DNA of 64,000 nt from Cliona cf. orientalis. Lineage: Eukaryota > Porifera > Demospongiae > Clionaida > Clionaidae. Position numbers and translations under genes: made by a program. A model generated the notes under the pieces. It was given only the letters and a program-made list of their open reading frames with translations. It was not told the DNA's origin and searched no databases. Positions 4,852 to 44,036 of this stretch are shown piece by piece. Every line of letters begins with the position of its first letter. Position 1 is the first letter of the stretch. Location of the stretch: contig OZ005689.1 in the NCBI GenBank assembly GCA_963930775.1, positions 29,341,079 to 29,405,078 on the forward strand. Reading direction: 5' to 3'.

Positions 4852-5582
4852 AGAGAGAGCTACTTCTATAGAAGAATTGTATGTTAACCATAAAATGCAC
4901 ACATAAGTAGATCCTTTTTTGGTTGATAATGTTATGATCATTTAACTGCTGGGTAGTAAGGCCGACATACTGTTTCTTGCATTTCGTGCAAGTGATTGAG
5001 TTGGATGAAGTACAGGTGAAGCTTTGCCTGATGATGTACCTGTTGCCGGTTTTACTTGAAGTAAAATACATGTACTTGCTGCAGTTGAGATGCTTACAAG
5101 TAACGTATCTTGGATGGTTGCATCGCTTTGTTCTAGCACCTTGTGTTTGGAGTTGTCTAGCAGTGGTGTAACTTGGAAGCAGTATGGTTGCTTAGGGTGA
5201 TGTGGATGTCAGCAAGTTGTTCATTTATTGGAGAGAGTCGGGTTCTCACTAGCTCATTGCTGAGTGTTGTGTGCCTTAAAGGGATGAAGCGAGGGGCGGG
5301 CAGCACTTTCTGTAGGGGGTGGTAGTTTTCTAGGACTATCTGTTTCAGGAGTTTGTATTGAGGGGGAGGAGGACATTTGTACAGTGGAGGATAGTACCTG
5401 GGTTGTGGGGGGCTTTGATTGATGGAGTAGCTGTGCTCTGTCCTTGTAGGATACTGTTGCTGCTGTTTTCTCCACTAAAGCTTTTGAGTAGCCTCGTGAG
5501 ACCAAACGTACACTAAATAGGGTTTTCATAGCTTCATAGTTGACCTCTGATGTGTTCGTTTTGACGTGTTCGTTCTGACGTA
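4850..5582 (-). mobile_element. Penelope-like element, connector and GIY-YIG part
   Basis: Minus-strand remnants of the C-terminal part of a Penelope-like retroelement. From 5582 downward the frames read into TSEVNYEAMKTLFSVRL and RGYSKALVEKT, typical of the region after the reverse transcriptase. Near 5130-4930 comes a GIY-YIG type segment with KYMYFTSSKTGNRY, ITCTKCKKQYVGLTTQQL and IYLCVHF. A 14-nt tandem duplication near 5555-5580 and further shifts break the frame. Known PLEs carry reverse transcriptase followed by this endonuclease. This piece continues the one ending at 12551: the two meet at the TA that flanks the 6,968-bp insertion. Dead copy; the exact 3' end is uncertain. Confidence 0.8.
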
Positions 5583-5606
5583 TAGTACACCTCCAAAGTT
5601 CTTGCA
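5583..5606. repeat. Left terminal inverted repeat of the 6,968-bp element
   Basis: TAGTACACCTCCAAAGTT followed by CTTGCA. It matches the reverse complement of 12527-12550 at 16 of the first 18 positions. TA at 5581-5582 precedes it. Confidence 0.8.
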
Positions 5607-5754
5607 CACTTTAGGAGTGAAAAGTAATGTGTCTAGCATCACTGTAAGGAGAAGCTCCCATACACTCTCAGTAGTAGTGTTGCTACACCGACGAACTCTT
5701 ACCTACTCTCAACATACACGGTACTTTGCTTGGATGGGTTTGACATGCACTCAA

Positions 5755-5976
5755 TACTCTCAGTAATAGCTGTCTGGCTAAGTGTAAAACTTCAGTTTAC
5801 TGGGGGTGGGTATATTATGCACTCACTCTCAGCTAAGTATGTCACTATACCAAAAAACTCCACACTCAACACACTTTGGGTGGGTGGGTTAGACACTCAA
5901 TAATATTATGTACTCTCAGCAATATTATTGCCTGTCCCAGTACAGAATCATTCACTTGGCACTCAGTCACACGCGT

Positions 5977-6016
<40 letters not shown>

Positions 6017-6237
6017 AATACTCTCAGTAATAGCTGTCTGGCTAAGTGTAAAACTTCAGTTTACTGGGGGTGGGTGTATGCACTCACTCTCAGCTAAGGA
6101 TGTCACTATACCAAAAAACTCCACACTCAACACACTTTGGGTGGGTGGGTTAGACACTCAATAATATTATGTACTCTCAGCAATATTATTGCCTGTCCCA
6201 GTACAGAATCATTCACTTGGCACTCAGTCACACGCGT

Positions 6238-6275
<38 letters not shown>

Positions 6276-6490
6276 AATACTCTCAGTAATAGCTGTCTGG
6301 CTAAGTGTAAAACTTCAGTTTACTGGGGGTGGGTGTATGCACTCACTCTCAGCTAAGGATGTCACTATACCAAAAAAACTCCACACTCAACACACTTTGG
6401 GTGGGTGGGTTAGACACTCAATAATATTATGTACTCTCAGCAATATTATTGCCTGTCCCAGTACAGAATCATTTACTCAGTCACACGCGT

Positions 6491-6537
<47 letters not shown>

Positions 6538-6545
6538 GATACACA
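5755..6545. repeat. ~260-bp tandem repeat, three units, each with a (CA)n tract
   Basis: Units begin with ACTCTCAGTAATAGCTGTC at 5755, 6020 and 6279 (spacing 265 and 259 bp). Each ends in a CACGCGTGCACACAC microsatellite. Units are nearly identical apart from small indels in the A-run and CA-run, and the third is slightly shortened before its CA run. Long Thr/His-rich open frames here are microsatellite artefacts. Confidence 0.9.
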
Positions 6546-6845
6546 CACACCACACACACACTCTCTCACTCAATCGCTATGCTTTCAAAGTCTGCACATG
6601 AGTTATGTAAAACCTATCCAACATGGGTGGTTTGCACATTGAATCTTCATCCATTTCTAGTTGTCTACAGATTCTGAAACACTTCTCCATAACTAAAATA
6701 AATACATGTAATAGTATACCAATGTGTAGAATAAATCGTTTATTAGGTAGCAGATTTCATTGAAATATACAATATACTATTACAATATTATAATAAATGG
6801 GTAAAAGATTAAGTCTCTTCAGTTTCAGTATTGCAAATTAAGTGT

Positions 6846-7859
6846 TCACACTTCGTCATCGACAACAGGCTCTCCATTTTTTTCAACGATTTTTGGAATC
6901 ACTTTATAGATGTGGTCAATATAGCGGCAACATTGTTCTGGCGTAAGCTTGGTTCGCCAAAACCTTTTAATTCCTTCAACAAGCTCCTGTTTGTTAGATG
7001 GCTTAATGGTGTATGCCAAGTAATACTTCATGTGACTCCAGACCCTCTCGATGGGGTTGAGATCCGGCGATTCAGCAGGAGTGCGCCACCAGTTGATTCC
7101 TTCATTTTCAAAGAACTCCTTTGCTTTGCGACTTGTGTGTTTCGGATCATTATCTTGTTGGAATCGATGATGCTCTGGGTACGTCGTCCGTATGAAGGGA
7201 AGGAGGCCAGCTTGGAGGATATTCACGTACAAATCAGCGTCCATGGTTTGAGTAAAAATGATCACAGATGTTGCACCTTTCCTAGAGATCCCCCCCCCCC
7301 ACACATAAACCTTGATTGGGTGTTTTGGTTTCGGCTTGTACTTCCTCGGCATTCCAACTTGGTGGTATGACCTTCGCACATGAGAGGTCAACTGAACCAT
7401 AGCTTCATCCGTGAATATGACATCCTCAAAAGTATCACCTGACTCAAGCAGTTGTTGGCAAAATTCAACTCGTTTTACTTTGTTAGGCTGGCGAATCATT
7501 TGGCAGTACCGTGTAGCTCTTGATGTCCACCCAAGCTTCTGTCGAGCACGAGCAACGGAAGACTTGCTTCCCCTTAGGCCAAGATTTTGCAGCTTTTGCA
7601 CTAGGTCTCGAGTGGTTGTTTCATCGTCTTCTTGCATGAAAGAGTTAATAGCTTGAAGAGCGCTTGAAGTTATCACGCTGGGACGACCACTCCTTGGAGC
7701 ATCATGTAATGATTGCGTTCTCCTGTAGCGAGCAATAAGGTAATAAACTCCTCGAAGAGAAACTTGAATATCTTCTTGCTGCAGTGCCTCCACTATCTCA
7801 GGAGGGCTTAGACTTTCAGCAAGTCTAATAATTCGCTCTCGACAGTACATGGAGTACAT
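6846..7859 (-). CDS. Tc1/mariner-type DD34E transposase
   Basis: An uninterrupted frame of about 337 residues from the ATG at 7859. The open frame extends to 7907, but a good acceptor (CTCTCCCGACACAG) lies just before the chosen start, so a 5' exon is possible. The N-terminus has a helix-turn-helix pair (RERIIRLAESLSPPEIVEAL, then PRSGRPSVIT). The catalytic RNase-H fold shows FTDEAMVQL, QQDNDPKHTS and SPDLNPIERVW. Between the second Asp and the Glu there are 34 residues, giving DD34E as in Tc1-like enzymes. It cuts and rejoins transposon ends at TA sites. No inverted repeats sit close around this gene, so the ends at 5583 and 12550 are the best candidate substrate. A TTTATT near 6738 gives a minus-strand AATAAA. 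It appears intact. Confidence 0.93.
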   Translation of the reverse strand: MYSMYCRERIIRLAESLSPPEIVEALQQEDIQVSLRGVYYLIARYRRTQSLHDAPRSGRPSVITSSALQAINSFMQEDDETTTRDLVQKLQNLGLRGSKSSVARARQKLGWTSRATRYCQMIRQPNKVKRVEFCQQLLESGDTFEDVIFTDEAMVQLTSHVRRSYHQVGMPRKYKPKPKHPIKVYVWGGGISRKGATSVIIFTQTMDADLYVNILQAGLLPFIRTTYPEHHRFQQDNDPKHTSRKAKEFFENEGINWWRTPAESPDLNPIERVWSHMKYYLAYTIKPSNKQELVEGIKRFWRTKLTPEQCCRYIDHIYKVIPKIVEKNGEPVVDDEV

Positions 7860-8154
7860 CACCTGTGTCGGGAGAGATAGTGTATAAAAGTACATAATGA
7901 TATGCATGGCATTTATGCTGACTTCACTATTAAATTTTAGTAATTATGAGTGAGAGAATGAGAGAGAGAGAGAGAGAGAGAGAAGTTGCTTTATGCTCAT
8001 ACCGTGGGAGTAGTAATAGTCGAAGTAGTTGAGTTGGATCACACGGAGGAAAGTTGGATCGACTTGACTGAGTTTTCGATGGGTGTCACTTTATAATCTT
8101 GTAGTCTTTCACCTAACTGAAACAAATGGCAGATGTGCTGCCAATTTTATATTC

Positions 8155-8835
8155 ATACAGGTTCACTCACACTCACACTCACACTCGCACTCACACTCGC
8201 ACTCGCACTTATTACTCGAAGAACAATCACACTCACATTCACAATAATAATGCACTGGCACACGATCTGAACACATAAAAACCACACCACACTCAAAATC
8301 AGAACACACTCACACTCAAAGTCAAAACACACTCAAAGTCCAACACACTTAAAGTTATCTCAATCAGAACATATATACAGTGTTTGTACACTCAAAGTTA
8401 GAACACACTCACACTCAAAGTCAGAACACACTCACACTCAAAGTCAGAACACACTCGAAGTCCAACACACACTCAAAGTCAGAACACACTCACACTCAAA
8501 GTCAGAACACACTCGAAGTCCAACACACACTCAAAGTCAGAACACACACTCAAAGTTAGAACACACTCAAAGTCAGAACACACACTCAAAGTCAGAACAC
8601 ACTCACACTCAAAGTCAGAACACACTCGAAGTCCAACACACACTCAAAGTCAGAACACACTCACACTCAAAGTCAGAACACACTCACACTCAAAGTCAGA
8701 ACACACTCGAAGTCCAACACACACTCAAAGTCAGAACACACTCACACTCAAAGTCAGAACACACTCGAAGTCCAACACACACTCAAAGTCCAAGGCACTC
8801 ACATCTACTCCAAATCAGAACACACACTCAGTAGT
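8155..8835. repeat. Minisatellite of ACACTCAAAGTCAGA-type units
   Basis: About 680 bp of short units such as ACACTCAAAGTCAGAAC, CACTCACACTCAAAGTC and ACTCGAAGTCCAACAC, arranged in larger repeating groups of roughly 50-60 bp. It begins with a TCACAC/TCGCAC stretch. It separates the transposase from the 3' end of the BEN gene. No coding function seen. Confidence 0.88.
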
Positions 8836-8971
8836 TTCTGATGTATGCACACTTAGAACTGAATTCAGCAAGATAGGTAAAATAGTTATTGTAACATTAT
8901 CCAGTGCCATTCTTAACTCAAAAGTATATAAGTAATAGTCATTTAGAATCCAAACCAAAATTGGTCCAAAT

Positions 8972-11900
8972 CTAGTCAGAAGAGGAAACAGACGTGGAAT
9001 CTCCTTTATTTTTCTTTTTCTTTTTCATTTTTTTTCTGTTTAGACGCCTACCAGCTTCATCGATGGCTTTTGTACATTTAGATGCCCAGTCTTTTTCTTC
9101 ACATGCGCCGGGTTTAAGTGGCCAATATGTATAAACAATTTGGCGTACTGTGGACATCTTATCAGGATCTAGCTTGCTTTTCCCCTTTCTACCGTTAACA
9201 TTACTGCTTGTTAGCACTTCTTGAGGGAAAATTTCATGGACCAGCTTCGCAGCAAAGTTCTTTCTAGAGCTGCTTGCCTCTTTAATCCTCCGGATCTGCT
9301 CCGTTGTTAGCTCAAAGAAAGAAGGTAGCAACACTGACGGTGGCTGCATTCCTGTAGGCTGATATTTAAATTTTTGTGGTGGGTTTAGCAGATGAGGAGG
9401 TTGCTGCTCGAGAGCGAGAGATTGTTGATGTTGCTGCCCGAGTGTGAGAGACTGTTGAGGTTGCTGCCCGAGTGTGAGAGACTGTTGAGGTTGCTGCCCG
9501 AGTTGCTGCCTGAGCGTGAGGGACTGTTGATTTTGCTGCCCGAGTGTGAGGGACTGTGGAGGTTGCTGCCCGAGTGTGAGGGACTGTGGAGGTTGCTGCC
9601 CGAGTGTGAGAGACTGTTGAGGTTGCTGCCCGAGTTGCTGCCTGAGCGTGAGGGACTGTTGATTTTGCTGCCCGAGTGTGAGGGACTGTGGAGGTTGCTG
9701 CCCGAGTGTGAGGGACTGTTGAGGTTGCTGCCCGAGTGTGAGGGACTGTTGAGGTTGCCCGAGTGTGAGAGACTGTTGAGGTTGCTGCCCGAGTGTGAGG
9801 GACTGTTGAGGTTGCTGCCCGAGTGTGAGGGACTGTTGAGGTTGCTGCCCGAGTGTGAGAGACTGTTGAGGTTGCTGCCCGAGTGTGAGAGACTGTTGAT
9901 GTTGCTGCCCGAGTGTGAGAGACTGTTGAGGTTGCTGCCCGAGTGTGAGAGACTGTTGAGGTTGCTGCCCGAGTGTGAGAGACTGTTGATGTTGCTGCCC
10001 GAGTGTGAGAGACTGTTGAGGTTGCTGCCCGAGTGTGAGAGACTGGGGATGTTGTTGAGGTTGCTGCCCGAGTGTGAGAGACTGGGGATGTTGCTGCCCG
10101 AGACTGTGAGACGGAGAAGGTTGCTGCTCAAGATCGAAAGACTGACGATGTTGCTGCCCGAGACTGTGAGTCGGAGAAGGTTGCTGCTCAAGATCGAAAG
10201 ACTGACGATGTTGCTGCCCGAGACTGTGAGTCGGAGAAGGTTGCTGCTCAAGATCGAAAGACTGACGAGGTTGCTGCTTGAGATTGAGAGACTGGGGAGG
10301 TTGTTGCCCGAGAGTGAGACAATGGGGTTGCTTTTGATTTAATGAGTGAAGGGGTTCTTGTTCAAGATTGTGAGCAGGGGTTTTCTGTTCAAGACTAACT
10401 GATTGCTCTTCAAAACTGGGCAAGAGAGAAGTCTCTTGAAAAAGTGCACGTGACACTCGCTGTTCGTCGAGAAAGAGTGACTGTTGTGGACCTGTGCGAG
10501 TGGACTGCACTGTCTTCAGGTCTTCGTTGCTTATCGACGGCTTAGTCTGATCGTCAAAACTCTGAGCCTGCACGTTGTTCAGACTTGCTTGAGATTCTTC
10601 CAAGTTAGAGAAGAGGTCCAGCAATATATCAGATTTTGGTTCAGTCAACTTGTTTAGCACTGTTTCAAGAGTTTTTTCAATGTCACTTAACCGTTCGTGT
10701 ATGTGTTCCAGTTCATTCTTAATGGGAGTGTTGTAGCATAACGCTTCTGAATCCTTTGATGAGGATACTTTTGACTTATAGTCTGGACTGCTGATGATTA
10801 AAGACTTTGGATCAACGTCTTCAGCTTTGGATGGCTGCTCACCATTCCCTTCATTCTGTATGTGGAAAGTAAAATAGACTGATACTGTATATTTATTAAA
10901 AAGTTACCGTATAGCGGGAAATTTTCGCTTGGTGCAAAATTTCGCGTTTTTTCGCGGATCAGTCGGCCGCCGCGAAAATAAGAACCGCGAAATTTTGAAT
11001 AGGCAGCGTACGTATACCATACTATGGCGTGGCGCGCGCTCGGTGACGCGAAAATTAAAACCACGAAAATTTCTTCTGAAGGGCTGACAAGCAATTCCGC
11101 GAAAGTTTGCACCAGCAAAAATTTCCTGCTATACGGTATGTATCATTCGGCTACATCTACACTATATAAGCTTTGTAACCACACCTTTCTTACCCTCTAG
11201 AAAATCTGCATGGTCAGTGCATGTAAAGGGAAGAGGTAATTAGGTACAACTGTACCTCAAGGTCTTTCTTTAGATCAACAGGTGGAGCCGAACCAATCTC
11301 TAGGCATGCCTCACCAGTGCTCTGCAGTTGCAGTGTGAGTGTGTATGTGCATTTGTGTGTGTGTGTTTTGGGGGGGGGGGGGTAATATACACATGTAAGT
11401 GAACGAGATGTAGATTCTGTGATTTCATACCAAGTAACAAAAGTGAACAAAGCAGTTAAACACTCCCTGAATTCATGCAAGGCTTGAAGCACAAAAGTCT
11501 GGATGTGTACCACACTCATGGCAGCTTATAGAGGTCAGCTTTTAAAGAGGGCTGATCAAAGGCAGCTGGAGATGTTACTATATAAGCTGGTTCACAATCA
11601 TTAAATTCTTTCATGAGTGCTACTGCCCAATACCAGCCTTATAGTACACAGTATTTACCAACCTTTGAAGAGTTGGTTGAAGATTTCTTCTTAGCTTTAG
11701 TCTCCTTCTTAGATTTAGTCTCCTTCTTTTCTGAACCCTATACATACATATATATAACAAAAATAATAATCAAGTGGTTGCAGATAATTAGCACAACTCG
11801 TATTATGAACTAAAAATATGCCAGACATTATCTATAGTTTTTTATGGCTGCATACCTGTGCATCTCCAGTTGTCACATTGCCAGGACCCAGGTAAACTGC

Positions 11901-12077
11901 AGCCCAGACCTTTGCTCCTGGGCTTTTTCCCAATTTAATTTGTATCTCTTGTCCCTCCAACAAAGCAGATGGGGGAGAAACACACCATTTCTTTTCAACT
12001 AGTTGCTCCCGCCCATCGCTGCTGCCACCCATCCATTTCACTCTCAGATACTCTTTGGATGCCATCAGGCGGCTCAT
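8972..12077 (-). CDS. BEN-domain protein with Gln/Leu repeat region, four exons
   Basis: I join four minus-strand exons, all phase 0: 12077-11856, 11737-11663, 11321-11256 and 10855-8972. The introns have GT donors (GTATGC, GTTGGT, GTACAG) and pyrimidine-AG acceptors; the product is about 748 residues. Residues 1-74 contain EYLRVKWMGG and KVWAAVYLGP, resembling the short N-terminal module I recall from BEND-type proteins. Residues 75-99 are Lys-rich (KKETKSKKETKAKKK). About 270-610 is a decapeptide repeat (SLTLGQQPQQ). About 635-730 is a BEN domain: SSRKNFAAKLVHEIF, SNVNG, LDPDKMSTVRQIV, CTKAIDEAGRRL, then a poly-Lys tail. BEN domains bind DNA or chromatin. It shares strand with the transposase inside the same transposon, so it may be cargo or an accessory factor; its role is inference. 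Earlier 5' exons are possible. Confidence 0.82.
9405..10335. repeat. 30-bp coding minisatellite in the BEN gene
   Basis: About 30 units of a 30-bp repeat (plus strand GAGTGTGAGAGACTGTTGAG and GTTGCTGCCC) encode SLTLGQQPQQ on the minus strand. Near 10090-10280 the unit changes to a longer form encoding SFDLEQQPSPTHSLGQQHRQ. Because the unit is a multiple of three and lacks stops, a second minus frame and a plus frame stay open for about 290-315 codons; those are shadows. Such arrays vary readily in copy number. Confidence 0.92.
10907..11136. mobile_element. 230-bp TA-flanked miniature element in a BEN-gene intron
   Basis: Ends are TA-CCGTATAGCGGGAAATTTTCGC and, reverse complemented from the right, TA-CCGTATAGCAGGAAATTTTTGC. 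Both continue to a shared TGGTGCAAA. It lies between exons 3 and 4 of the BEN gene, so it does not interrupt coding. It belongs with other TA..CCGTA-ended elements in this window (43008, 53378, 61426). Confidence 0.85.
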
Positions 12078-12099
12078 ATGCTCCTGGTATAACTGTACC

Positions 12100-12450
12100 C
12101 TGCTTCCAAAAACTGAGCTTACTTGTTACATACACTTTATATGCACGTAGCCAGCACGCATACACGCTGCTTGCACTCGCAGCTTAAGTGCTACGCGCAC
12201 GTGCACGAACGTGAGGCTCAAGCCACGCGGTGCACGGTGTTCTGTTCAATGAATATCATTAACATTAAACGCTGTTATGCGTGCGCGCGCACACGTACGT
12301 ATACCACGCGCTCGCGTACGTACGTAATTGCGCCATGCGCTAGCGCTAGCCGGCCCTCATATCGATGGCGTGCGCGGGCCTCGCGCTCGAGCGTCGAGCT
12401 AGTGCGAGCTGTAATGACATGCTGTTGTACTGCAAGGGCATGCATTCACA
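12100..12450. other. CpG-rich stretch upstream of the BEN gene
   Basis: Dense CG dinucleotides and alternating purine-pyrimidine runs (GTGCGCGCGCACACGTACG) lie directly 5' of the proposed BEN start at 12077. They may include its promoter, but I see no defined TATA box or initiator. The right inverted repeat of the transposon follows at 12527-12550. Confidence 0.35.
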
Positions 12451-12526
12451 TTCAAAACTACAGAATATAACACTCGTGTACAGTAGAAAGTCATGCAAGT
12501 ACTTGGCATGGCCCTCTCGAGTATAT

Positions 12527-12550
12527 TGAAGAAACTTTTGAGTTGTACTA
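12527..12550. repeat. Right terminal inverted repeat of the 6,968-bp element
   Basis: Reverse complement reads TAGTACAACTCAAAAGTT then TCTTCA, matching the left end at 5583. TA follows at 12551-12552. Confidence 0.8.
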
Positions 12551-13106
12551 TATCTGATTAGTTCTCCAGATATGATTGCCTTGTGCACAGATTTTTGGTG
12601 GTTCGAGGTGTAGTGAAGATACTGGAATAAGTTGTGAGGCTTTTGGAATGTTTATGTATCAAGAATATTGGTAACTGCAAACCTTGGGCTTTTGTAAATG
12701 GTTAGGATCCAGGAAATCGACTGTGGATAGAGAGTAGTGGTATGTATATGAGAGAGCAGAGTTATGGCTATTCAAGTCTGTGAGAAATTTCTTTAATTCA
12801 TCTTCAGTGTGGGTCCAGATCATGAAGATGTCATCAATATAGCGGACCAATAGAAGTGGTTTCTTATTCTGGGTACGTAAAAATCTTCTGATGGTTACTG
12901 ACATAAAGATATTAGCAGCTGTCGGAGAGAATGCTGCACCCATTGCTGTACCTTTAATTTGCTGGAAGATCAGGGATGCAAACTCAAAGTAGTTGTGGTT
13001 GACATTGATATGCAACAATTTTATGAAGAGATTAGGATCGAAAGGAAGGAGGTGCCTGTTTTGATTCATTTCATCATAAACTATTTGAAGCATGTCTGTC
13101 TGAGGA
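12551..13106 (-). mobile_element. Penelope-like element, reverse transcriptase part
   Basis: Minus-strand reverse transcriptase core. From 13106 downward: QTDMLQIVYDEM, then KGTAMGAAFSPTAANIFM (primer-grip side), LLVRYIDDIFMIW (the catalytic YIDD box) and TVDFLDPNHLQKP. After one frameshift come FQYLHYTSNHQKSVHKAIIS and GELIRY. These are family hallmarks of Penelope-like elements. The frame ends exactly at the TA flanking the 6,968-bp insertion and resumes at 5582. Upstream it is broken by the miniature element at 13107-13454. Dead copy. Confidence 0.9.
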
Positions 13107-40018: not shown

Positions 40019-41676
40019 CATAGTACTAACACAGTAGAGCCACACATTACAGGATAAGTGTGTGCAGCCATGAAGCGTTGCAAACGTACGACTTCCCTTT
40101 ACAAACATATTATTATAGGAAACGTTTCAAAGTGCCATAACTTTTAATTCAACGCCCTTATCAACGGGTTCCGTGTGCTCCACCGACTAGGTAGGTAGGT
40201 CAAGGGGCCTGTAAGTAAAGACTTATTTCATGGAGGGTACTCCATACGCGACGGCAATAGTAGAAAGGTCGACATGAATATGACAAAAATTGGACTTTGA
40301 CAATTTTCAACCTGAGCTACTAAAAACATGCATTGCACGACTTGTACGTTCTCGCGACATGCCTTGTTTTCGTAAATCCAATCATATTCTCATTGATCTC
40401 GCAACAAAAGTCAATAAAAGAAGTATAGGAAGAGATTATATTAAGCAACTGCATCTTTATTAAGATCTTTTTGTTCACCCACCCACACACACACACACAC
40501 ACAATCGGCTGACTGCTCGGTCGTGTTGTTTGGATTTGTCTTAGGTTTACACTCCTGGCCTAGAGTCGGTTGCACACATTCATGCTTGTTATGTGTCCTT
40601 AGTTCACCCTCCAGCTTGCCGCTTCAAGTATTTAAGTAAGAGCAAAATAATGTACCCAGAAGTGCATGATGGCACAGTGTCATGATGATCGATCATGACG
40701 TGGAATGACATGACGCAAATGAAAAGTAGGTCAATCGAGCTCAACAAAACCAGGCCGTTTCTACGCTATCCATGCCTTCTATCAACTACAAACATACAAT
40801 TTGAGCCGACGAAGGATCACCTTTTACTCGTATGACAGCGATATCTCTATGTCTCTTATCATTTGTGAGCTGTAGCGCTCATAAGTCCGGTGACCTTCGA
40901 CCCGCGAGATGTTGTGGACCTTCTCTCACCTTCTCTCTCCATCACCTGACTTCGCGTACCAGGCCCTCCCCCTTTTCTGCGTGTAACATTGAAAACGTGG
41001 GAGTGGCCTGGGGACAAGGCTAGTGATTTTTACATTTCTGGCCACATGTCCTGCTGTTTTATGCCATAATTGTTATCCTAAGGTATGAGCATGAGCAGCA
41101 AACTTGAGTATTATTCATGAGCATTATTCCTTACCAAGTTTGACTCCTTTGCTTGCACATCCTGGCAACCTTCAAGAGTGCAAATGTCTCATAACTCTAG
41201 ATTTGTGCATGACTTAACTCGTCTCTTCTAATGTAATCTGGGAATAGTACATACAGTACAGATCAGTGGAAAGGTAAACATTGCCCACGTGCTACCCGCA
41301 TGGTATTGGATGCTAACACACGCGGACATGCTGCAGAGTACCCGTGGATAATTTGCAACTTGACCGCATCCATCTGTGTGCACCAAGAGTATAATGTTAT
41401 TCATTGCAGATGTGCCTGGTAGGGTAGATGTCCATATAAGGTAATGCCACCATAATTGCTTGTAGTGTGCTAAGGCCAGGCAAAACAAAATCTTTCATCT
41501 CTGCATTTAATGTATTTGACAACTAGTGAATGTACAATGTCATGTATTGTTATGTTGTGAGTGTTGTATATATATTAATAATACTAGGGAAATGCACAGC
41601 ATTGTGCGGCAAGCCTGAGCGACAGTGATCATGCACAGTGATTTATGTTGTGCCATGCCCAACTACAAACTATATG
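40019..41676. other. Non-coding stretch
   Basis: No gene supported. About 40190-40350 loosely resembles 55295-55425 (GGTAGGTCA and TACTAAAAACATGCATTGCAC). A short (CA)n lies at 40490-40502. GTGGCCTGGGGACAAGGCTAG at about 41005-41025 matches the end of the 31046-31383 family. Confidence 0.45.
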
Positions 41677-41841
41677 CTAAAGGATGCACGCTCGTAGCCT
41701 GGCCTCTTTCTCTTCTGCCAACTCTGTGGCTAGTAAATTCTGTCTCTTCCAGCTTTTGAGCTGAGGCTCCAATTGATGACGAACTCCGTTTCGGTCTTGC
41801 CTCCTACCCTCTGAAGCCTCATTTCTGAGCTTTTCGCTGGT
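41677..41841 (-). pseudogene. Remnant of an Arg/Glu-rich coiled-coil frame
   Basis: A 54-residue minus-strand frame: EKLRNEASEGRRQDRN, QLEPQLKSWKRQNLL, ATELAEEKEARLRACIL. Just upstream, in another frame, RAMNAEQSINQRKAQ looks like its continuation. The charged repeats recall the basic coiled-coil N-terminal parts of some invertebrate transposon proteins, but I cannot name a family. Too short and broken to be a gene. Confidence 0.35.
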
Positions 41842-41969
41842 TTATGCTTTGTTCAGCGTTCATAGCGCGAGCGATCAGAGCCTGAATGTAAATTTGTAAG
41901 TTGACGTCGTTGAATTAGAGGAGCATATATACGGAATGATTGATGTTGGGCGGGGCGTAACTAAGGACA

Positions 41970-42465
41970 CTTTGGGCTCAATTTCCTGCTAAGGTCTAGT
42001 GTTTACTCGAATATGCGCCCATGTGTAGCTGCCCTTGAGAACGCAGCTTAAATGGCTGGTTTATGAGGACTGAACTTCGAATAGTCCATATAAGATCGAT
42101 AAATAATGTGCTAAATAGCTGGAAAACTAAGCCTAGCTAGCTTTATGCCACGTTTAAGCAGAAATCAACGATCGCACACGGCTAGCGATCTTAGCCACGC
42201 CCGGGCCACTTAATAGGGCTACACTCAACGACACATGGTGAAGTATCGCTGCATCCCTTGCTCTGGAGTGGCAACCGAGCTTGAATAAGGCTGAAATCAA
42301 TAGTAGTCGCTGCTACTATTCAAATTATGAAGCTAGCATGGGTAACTTACCTGGGCGCTCTTTCGCGTATAAACGCGATACTGATACCTCGAATATCGGC
42401 CCACCCCCCAATCTTGGCCCAACGTAGGGTGCACCGCCCATGGGCCCTCTTTCGCGAGGGTACGG
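41970..42465. mobile_element. Diverged, end-truncated copy of the 43008-43539 miniature element
   Basis: GGGCTCAATTTCCTGCTAAGG at 41977 through CCTCTTTCGCGAGGGTACGG at 42465 parallels 43065-43539 closely. The right end (CCGTACCCTCGCG when reversed, TA outside) is present. The left terminal repeat is not found at the expected place. Confidence 0.75.
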
Positions 42466-42559
42466 TATATACATATATCTCATTCGCACAGTTCATACCC
42501 GTTTATGTGGGGCTCGCTCAGGCTCGCCCCAATTATGTAAAGTTTACAGTTTTAAGTCA

Positions 42560-44036
42560 TCACTTCTTGGCTTGCTTCTCACTCTGTATCAGCTTTCTAG
42601 AATTTTCATCAATGGCATTTTGGCAGCTGGACCAGGCCTTTTCACAAGTTTTCACCTGTCTCCAGCTGAAAGTGATTAAGCACGATCTGCTTGATCCTCT
42701 CGATCCGATTAGGGGATAGTTGTTTTTTCCCTAGAACCCCCTTCACGTTGCTGGTCATCCTCTCTTATCTTGTGAATGCCAGTACAGCAACATTTTTTGC
42801 AAAGTTTCTTCTCGATGAGGATTGAATCCTCATGCTGACAAGCTTTTCTGCATCGGGAAACCTAGGAATAGTTTCCCGTTGAATAGGCTGATCTGGCTGA
42901 GATGTTGGTGGGTGCCTGGCTGGAGTGGTCAGTTGGGAATTGTTACATGTAGAGGGTCCAGGCTGCAGAGTAAACCCTTAGATACATGTAAATGAAAAAT
43001 ACATATACCGTACCCTCGCGAAAGAGGGCCCACTACGGAATGTCGGCCCACCCCCCACTTTGGGCTCAATTTCCTGCTAAGGTCTAGTATTTACTCGAAT
43101 ATGCACCCATGTGTAGCTGCCCTTGAAATCGTAGCTCAAATGGCCGGTTTATAAGGACTGAACCTCGAATATTCTATATAAAATCGATAAGTAACCTGCT
43201 AAACAGCCGTAATACTAAGCCTAACCAGCTCTACGCCACGTTTCAGCACAAATGGACGATCGTGCACGGCTAGCGATTGTAACCACGCCCACTTAGAACG
43301 GCTGCTGTCAGCAACACATGGTGAAGTATCGTGGCCTCCCTTGCTCTGGATTGGTAAGCGTGCTTGAATAAGGCTGAAATCAATAGTAGCCGCTCAAATT
43401 ATGAAGATAGCGTGGGTAACTTACCTGGGCGCTCTTTCGCGACTAAATGCGATACTGATACCTCGAATATCGGCCCATCCCCCAATCTTGGCCCAATGTA
43501 AGGTGCACCGCCCATGGGCCCTCTTTCGCGAGGGTACGGTACTATACTACTTACACAATCAGAAGGCCTTTGAGAAAGAGAGTCCTGCTGAGGTGGAGGA
43601 GAAAGCCTAGCAGGAGTTGTCAGCTGAGAGTAGGAAGGAGTATGGCATGGTAACATATACATGTATGTACATGTACATGACAGTTTCAGATGTAAGAAGT
43701 ACTACTTACATGATCAGTAGAAGGATGCAGAGCATCTTGGAAGAGTGGGTCCTGGTGAGATGGAGGAGAGTGCCTGATAGTTGTTCTCTGAGAGTGGTTA
43801 GAAGTTCCTGGCTAAGGAGCAAAGTAGGATAAAAAATATAGTTTGAATTATACATGTACATGTACTACTTACACAATCAGTAGGCTGCTGAGTAACTGGT
43901 TCTTGTTCCTGTGGAACATCATCTGAGGACTTGGAGGGCTGGGAGCTGCTCGGCTGGGATCCACCTTCCACCGAGGGAGTGTTAGACTTTGGCTTAGATC
44001 AAGGGATTTTGGGCTTGGATGGTGAGCCCAGTTCCA
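42560..44036 (-). pseudogene. Second BEN-domain locus, decayed, with duplicated small exons
   Basis: Minus-strand exon candidates: A 44036-43873, B 43811-43710, C 43623-43555, D 42962-42560, all phase 0 with GTAAGT donors after A, B and C. A is Ser/Pro/Gln-rich (SQPSSSQPSKSSDD) with an in-frame TGA. B, C and the start of D are diverged copies of one unit (SQRTTIRHSPPSHQD, LTTPARLSPPPQQD, SQLTTPARHPPTSQPD). D ends in a BEN domain: SSSRRNFAKNVAVLAF, ERMTSNVKGVLG, LSPNRIERIKQIVLNHF, AWSSCQNAIDENSRKLI. An in-frame TAA splits it just before ERMTS and a one-base shift comes before KAWSSC. The BEN blocks parallel the gene at 8972-12077. A 532-bp miniature transposon lies in the C-D intron. Probably dead; a very divergent active gene with undetected splicing is less likely. 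Confidence 0.7.
43008..43539. mobile_element. 532-bp TA-flanked miniature element
   Basis: TA-CCGTACCCTCGCGAAAGAGG at the left; the right end, reversed, reads TA-CCGTACCCTCGCGAAAGAGG as well, continuing GCCCA. TA lies at 43006-43007 and 43540-43541. It is inserted in an intron of the decayed BEN locus. It shares the CCGTA terminus with 10907, 53378 and 61426. Confidence 0.9.

Follow-up and report, generated by a model that had tools for sequence, protein, structure and literature searches.

The window analysed here is a 64,000-nucleotide stretch of the genome (216.8 Mb) of the sponge Cliona cf. orientalis, C1:29341079-29405078. It contains a Tc1/mariner-type transposon with two genes on its minus strand, one for a DD34E transposase and one for a BEN-domain protein. 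In this and related transposons the BEN gene is a standing second gene, not a one-off capture, and its product probably acts at the ends of the element itself. Positions below are those of the window, and loci elsewhere are given by contig and position. The element is laid out as follows.

5581..5582, left TA target dinucleotide, from the TA flank and the single TA of an empty site
5583..12550, whole Tc1/mariner-type element, 6,968 base pairs (bp), from its ends, the joining of its flanks and an empty site
5583..5600, plus strand, left terminal inverted repeat TAGTACACCTCCAAAGTT
5743..6566, left subterminal array of tandem repeats with a unit of about 260 bp
starts at 5970, 6231 and 6484, CACGCGTG palindromes inside the left subterminal tandem repeats
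6846..7907, minus strand, DD34E transposase, open frame of 353 amino acids
8258..8801, second block of tandem repeats, made up by eye of CACTCAAAGTCAGAA units
8972..10855, minus strand, BEN gene exon 3, with a coiled-coil-like segment (by eye), a glutamine-rich (Q-rich) tandem peptide repeat and the C-terminal BEN domain
9053..9259, minus strand, BEN domain, PF10523 match
11663..11737, minus strand, BEN gene exon 2
11856..12077, minus strand, BEN gene exon 1 from the ATG, with a weakly predicted Tudor-like module
12083..12550, right-end CpG-rich block, CpG observed/expected 1.38, with 8 CGCG and 2 CACGCG
12533..12550, minus strand, right terminal inverted repeat, TAGTACAACTCAAAAGTT as read on that strand
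12551..12552, right TA target dinucleotide, from the TA flank and the single TA of an empty site

The terminal repeats are imperfect inverses, identical at 16 of 18 bases, with TA directly outside both, as a preliminary description of this DNA had proposed. That description had also noted that removal of the element mends a Penelope reading frame. Joined at one TA, the Penelope flanks indeed give a 144-amino-acid open frame spanning the junction, and the same site lies empty at C9:3865529-3865738 (96% identity, 210 of 210 joined bases covered). The ends are exact, because this empty site reads GACGTATCTG with one TA where the window has TA-element-TA; the element thus inserted at TA and duplicated it. 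A small inner element around 6846-7859 had been named as the arrangement that would leave the BEN gene outside, and in the region 6560-8290 there is no inverted pair of 14 nucleotides or more around the transposase. Nor was a further end-like copy found near the transposase with up to four mismatches allowed.

The transposase was correctly described as intact: its frame matches DDE_3 (E-value 1.8e-19) and HTH_32, and a manual count along the translated sequence gives a D-34-E spacing. A DDE_3-related DDE/D transposase with this spacing, TA duplication and terminal inverted repeats (43 bp in group I and 60 bp in group II of the related elements considered below) are the hallmarks of Tc1/mariner. 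As read from this anatomy, the copies and the empty site, the transposase is predicted to move the element by cut-and-paste at TA. The frame is intact in two of the four window-family copies; in the remaining two a run of C disrupts it. This run, at 7288-7298 in the window, varies in length among copies, through slippage or assembly error.

The BEN gene lies on the strand of the transposase, as had been described. Its predicted splice model (12077-8972) has three coding exons, all of phase 0, and encodes 726 amino acids; four exons had been proposed, and no search was made for a fourth, 5' exon. The domain scores 37.4 bits against PF10523, above the gathering cut-off of 23.2, and has the BEN fold. 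Of its nine profile matches to solved structures with an E-value no higher than 10, eight are to BEND3 or BANP and one, at 1.4, is to TAF9B; by sequence it is thus closest to the CGCG-binding class that BEND3 and BANP represent. BEND3 and BANP bind CGCG and use an arginine for CpG choice (PMC11472053, PMC10206803). An arginine stands at the position of BANP R316, assigned via aligned ranges rather than residue by residue, in 21 of 25 ungapped BEN rows, and the window protein also has, by eye, a BANP-like coiled-coil-like segment before its BEN domain. Unlike it, BEND3 and BANP are encoded by host genes, outside transposon ends. The exon-3 frame is open in all four window-family copies, and its Q-rich repeat varies in length without breaking it (stop to stop, the frame counts 643, 643, 728 and 520 codons); the second tandem-repeat block likewise differs among the four (544, 584, 590 and 815 bp). 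Within the last BEN intron, at 10895-11140, lies what looks by eye like a fold-back element with CCGTATAGC ends, at whose position the C4 copy has a 10-base gap.

Searches for the left end, the right end and the BEN exon of the window family each led to one set of four places: the window, C1:37.29M, C14:6.09M and C4:4.00M. The copy at C1:37.29M shares its flanks with the window (most of 1-32,711 plus 3.6 kb upstream) and is therefore a duplicate, not a separate insertion; the flanks of the C14 and C4 copies differ from those of the window, which leaves three separate sites. Separate insertions of the whole unit are thus seen; in the C4 copy, the right end is missing its last bases. The segmental duplication itself joins window 1-32711 to C1:37.28-37.32M in seven pieces at 98.8-100% identity, with a few insertions. 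Single perfect window-type ends TATAGTACAACTCGAAAGTT occur at C3:6201263 and C9:5768107, with no partner within 12 kb.

The pairing of the two genes extends well beyond this family. Across the genome, the transposase gave at least 124 matches, merging into at least 92 loci, and the BEN domain at least 44. Among the matches listed, 30 of the 44 for BEN have a related transposase no more than 8 kb away, with 0.32 expected by chance; among the transposase loci listed, 30 of 92 have BEN nearby and 62 do not, the latter including a group whose match splits in two. Fourteen BEN matches lack a partner. Ten of them can be assigned by sequence or place to described types, as duplicates or remnants, and one, C6:3.04M, has a transposase remnant; C1:36.16M, C16:4.00M and C2:5.94M were left out of the classification. 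Diverged transposases, mostly 43-59% identical, hold diverged BEN genes between ends of their own. In groups I and II, as in the window family, the two genes share a strand; in groups III and IV they are convergent. The six end types have an outer TAYAGTAC in common.

We searched for ends of the window type and of groups I, II and III/IV, and paired by script those less than 12 kb apart. The patterns derive from BEN-bearing elements and cover transposases with these ends only; reversed patterns gave 0, 7, 0 and 0 places, the 7 from the loosest pattern with up to two mismatches. Pairing of the window type used the nine mismatch-free places, five of 14 with one or two mismatches being dropped (none pairs), and for groups III/IV a sample of 100 of 148 places. 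Among the 43 end pairs examined, 18 hold both transposase and BEN (one a duplicate of the window copy) and 25 hold neither; 47 ends were unpartnered. The two-gene elements between matching ends span 3.6-8.4 kb, and 22 of the 25 gene-less pairs span 593-636 bp and keep the same ends. Group V ends and the loci C17, C4:7.66M, C9, C11:5.5M, C14:4.88M, C8 and C1:35.17M form no end pair. Between C13 and C2, homology on either side ends no more than 3 bp from the repeats, so these are separate insertions with both genes. The preliminary description had taken the BEN gene for element-encoded cargo and had named single-gene copies between the same ends as the finding that would speak against this. No such copy occurs among the 43 pairs, and all 18 gene-bearing pairs have both genes, in support of that reading; cargo is probably even too weak a word for a gene that resembles a second element gene.

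A transposase tree of 93 rows has its 16 BEN-bearing rows in three places. One is the window, together with four database kin; another is a supported clade made up of 14 of our own rows and one from the database; the third is C1:35.17M. Interspersed between these places are the 74 rows that are database proteins without assigned BEN status. A single change of BEN status would fit the label count, so that one gain or several may lie behind the pattern. A BEN tree of 100 columns, with modest support, recovers the same element groups. The nearest BEN relative in the protein database is P0001 (558 amino acids, E-value 5.5e-45), and a transposase relative, P0007, is 80% identical; P0001 and P0007 are each placed on one contig of 2,246,383 bases, and P0097 and P0151 have their longest contig, of 680,963, in common. 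The two genes are likely neighbours in these database relatives too.

Why would a transposon of this kind encode a BEN protein? The composition of the ends offers a suggestive answer. We compared the 300 bp inside with the 300 bp outside 14 ends of our choosing, one per group and side and including the window relic. CGCG occurs 109 times inside and 5 times outside; random sequences with the same first-order transitions average 65.7 (standard deviation 9.1, maximum 90 in 500). CACGCG is present in 11 of the 14 ends and in none of the 14 flanks, where random sequences average 6.4 ends and reach 11 in none of 500. In the window element all eight CACGCG lie less than 1 kb from the ends, six of them owing to three repeats. 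The right-end CpG-rich block, likely the BEN promoter, also holds candidate binding sites. Because a BEND3/BANP-like domain with a conserved arginine coincides with sites concentrated at the ends, we infer that the BEN protein binds the ends of its own element, and among the targeting, end-binding and silencing-escape roles proposed earlier the data lean to this one.

We therefore think it likely that this is a two-gene, TA-targeting DD34E Tc1/mariner transposon whose standing second gene encodes a protein that binds the element's own ends, most likely against silencing. The transposase would cut the element out and paste it in at TA, and the BEN protein, most likely as an oligomer, would bind CGCG or CACGCG in the terminal regions through its BEN domain. 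The most likely benefit would be that promoters and ends are kept open, with methylation and silencing resisted; a close alternative is that the BEN protein would aid the transposase directly. A more specific version, in which these transposons form a two-component class whose oligomeric, CpG-reading BEN protein recognizes unmethylated CACGCG at its own ends and so prevents silencing, we put forward only tentatively.

Several observations weigh against the reading preferred here. The full BEND3 site CCCACGCG occurs in one of the 14 ends, CACGCG is absent from the first 300 bp at the left end of the window element (the first begins 387 bp in), the presumed C1:35.17M end has no CGCG, and group V BEN frames stop before the key arginine. 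At C2:7.4496M, an element with a transposase and no detected BEN has an end with eight CGCG, one CACGCG and a CpG observed/expected of 1.83; since this BEN-less end, the sole control of its kind that we read, is CGCG-rich too, CpG-rich ends may simply be promoters. Selection, measured as the ratio of nonsynonymous to synonymous substitution rates (dN/dS), is uneven. Four of 22 BEN pairs fall at 0.10-0.15: C4-C17 (0.10) and C4-C5 (0.14), both with dS exceeding 1.7, a range in which the method is rough, and C1:36.47M-C6:5.69M (0.13) and C6:9.32M-C6:5.69M (0.15), based on 24 and 29 differences. Another eleven pairs, from groups II and V, lie at 0.36-0.70, and six at 0.81-1.75, four of these with 4-9 differences: two group V pairs above 1, the third group IV pair at 0.81 on 7 differences, and three group I pairs at 0.88-1.75 on 4-9 differences. 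The C17-C5 pair is saturated, and one transposase pair, from group IV, gives 0.34. The spread therefore indicates purifying selection between diverged BEN copies and a weak or absent signal in young or decaying ones. The element without detected BEN is recent: its copies L031 and L032 (C2:7.45M and C4:5.62M) are 99.9% alike over 2.9 kb, with the end ACAGTTGTGGTCAATG.

The same end-bound protein might instead be a structural partner in transposition, binding subterminal sites and helping to assemble both ends for the transposase, with no part in silencing. In groups I and II both ends carry CGCG, and only one of the two is a gene start if the genes are co-directional; the terminal repeats of the window element are short and diverged, so that additional end recognition would help; and the same ends are kept in the 22 copies of 593-636 bp without a gene match. 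Against this, ordinary Tc1/mariner transposases do not require a second protein, and we regard the structural role as possible but doubtful. The BEN protein could also act on the host, as a general repressor or insulator that softens the harm of insertion, or as a brake on the transposase. Human BEN proteins are mostly chromatin-related and BEND3 can repress (PMC11472053), and the weak Tudor-like N-terminal module would suit chromatin reading, but the candidate sites cluster in the element's own ends, which makes an action on the host unlikely.

Large elements are able to carry passenger genes, and a captured BEN gene without function for the element would fit the differing lengths of the Q-rich repeat and the absence of strong purifying selection in 18 of 22 BEN pairs. 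Such a passenger would, however, hardly be expected to accompany the transposase in 18 of 18 gene-bearing end pairs, to recur with transposases in three places of the tree, even if BEN is missing near 62 further transposase loci, or to show dN/dS of 0.10-0.15 in four pairs, and we consider this quite improbable. Most Tc1/mariner elements are small and have a single gene, which would suit an ordinary Tc1 inside or beside a host BEN gene, with the large ends arising by chance. That arrangement is refuted by the exact 7-kb empty site, the whole two-gene units elsewhere and the lack of an inner inverted pair, and we give it practically no weight.

Tc1/mariner is the model of the minimal one-gene transposon. 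The elements described here resemble it in their DDE_3-type DD34E transposase, TA target, short inverted ends and small gene-less copies with the same ends, but differ in their 3.6-8.4 kb size and in the second, spliced BEN gene of all 18 gene-bearing pairs. Relatives with extra genes are already known: the Tec and TBE elements of ciliates are also multi-gene, but the extra gene named there is a site-specific recombinase (PMC7325037), where here it is BEN. Bracovirus BEN genes in wasps and Lepidoptera are likewise carried on mobile DNA, but form a viral gene family, and the available part of the source names no Tc1/mariner partner (PMC5704228). As judged by titles and abstract openings, literature searches listed no BEN-bearing Tc1/mariner element.

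A parallel to the proposed mode of action comes from plants. VANDAL elements are Mutator-like, and their VANC proteins are not known to be BEN proteins; the window transposase is of the DDE_3 Tc1/mariner kind, and the comparison covers mode of action only. VANC proteins are DNA-binding anti-silencing proteins with variable tandem peptide repeats, and their elements contain short motifs within tandem repeats of non-coding DNA (PMC5735166). The window element likewise has a second gene and both kinds of repeat, peptide and non-coding DNA, but anti-silencing is shown for VANC and proposed here. The candidate motif is concentrated at the ends, as would suit a VANC-like protein on arrayed non-coding motifs, yet the BEN-less control end is CGCG-rich. 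Do transposons outside plants, like VANDALs, have genes for methylation-sensitive proteins by which their own ends stay open? The recurrence of a second gene from a chromatin-factor class suggests that certain Tc1/mariner elements bring their own DNA-binding regulator. If true, the two-component version would be a counterpart to VANC anti-silencing in plants, with transposons as a reservoir of BEN domains that could have supplied host CpG readers. A caution also follows: what is counted as a BEN gene in a genome like this may belong to a transposon, 30 of the 44 listed matches having a transposase no more than 8 kb away.

The window holds a second, decayed member of this kind at 41252-43905. 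Its end at 41252 is of the group II type, and it keeps a BEN remnant at 42651-42848 on the minus strand; 42532-43905 is 93-95% identical, in two pieces, to the C14:4.88M element. A cluster of ten related BEN matches occupies C6:0.16-0.94 Mb. Six of its loci (L054, L060-L062, L064 and L065) are 73-95% alike in pieces, with BEN frames that stop before the key arginine, and because the likeness passes the element end in five of the six, the cluster was duplicated in place.

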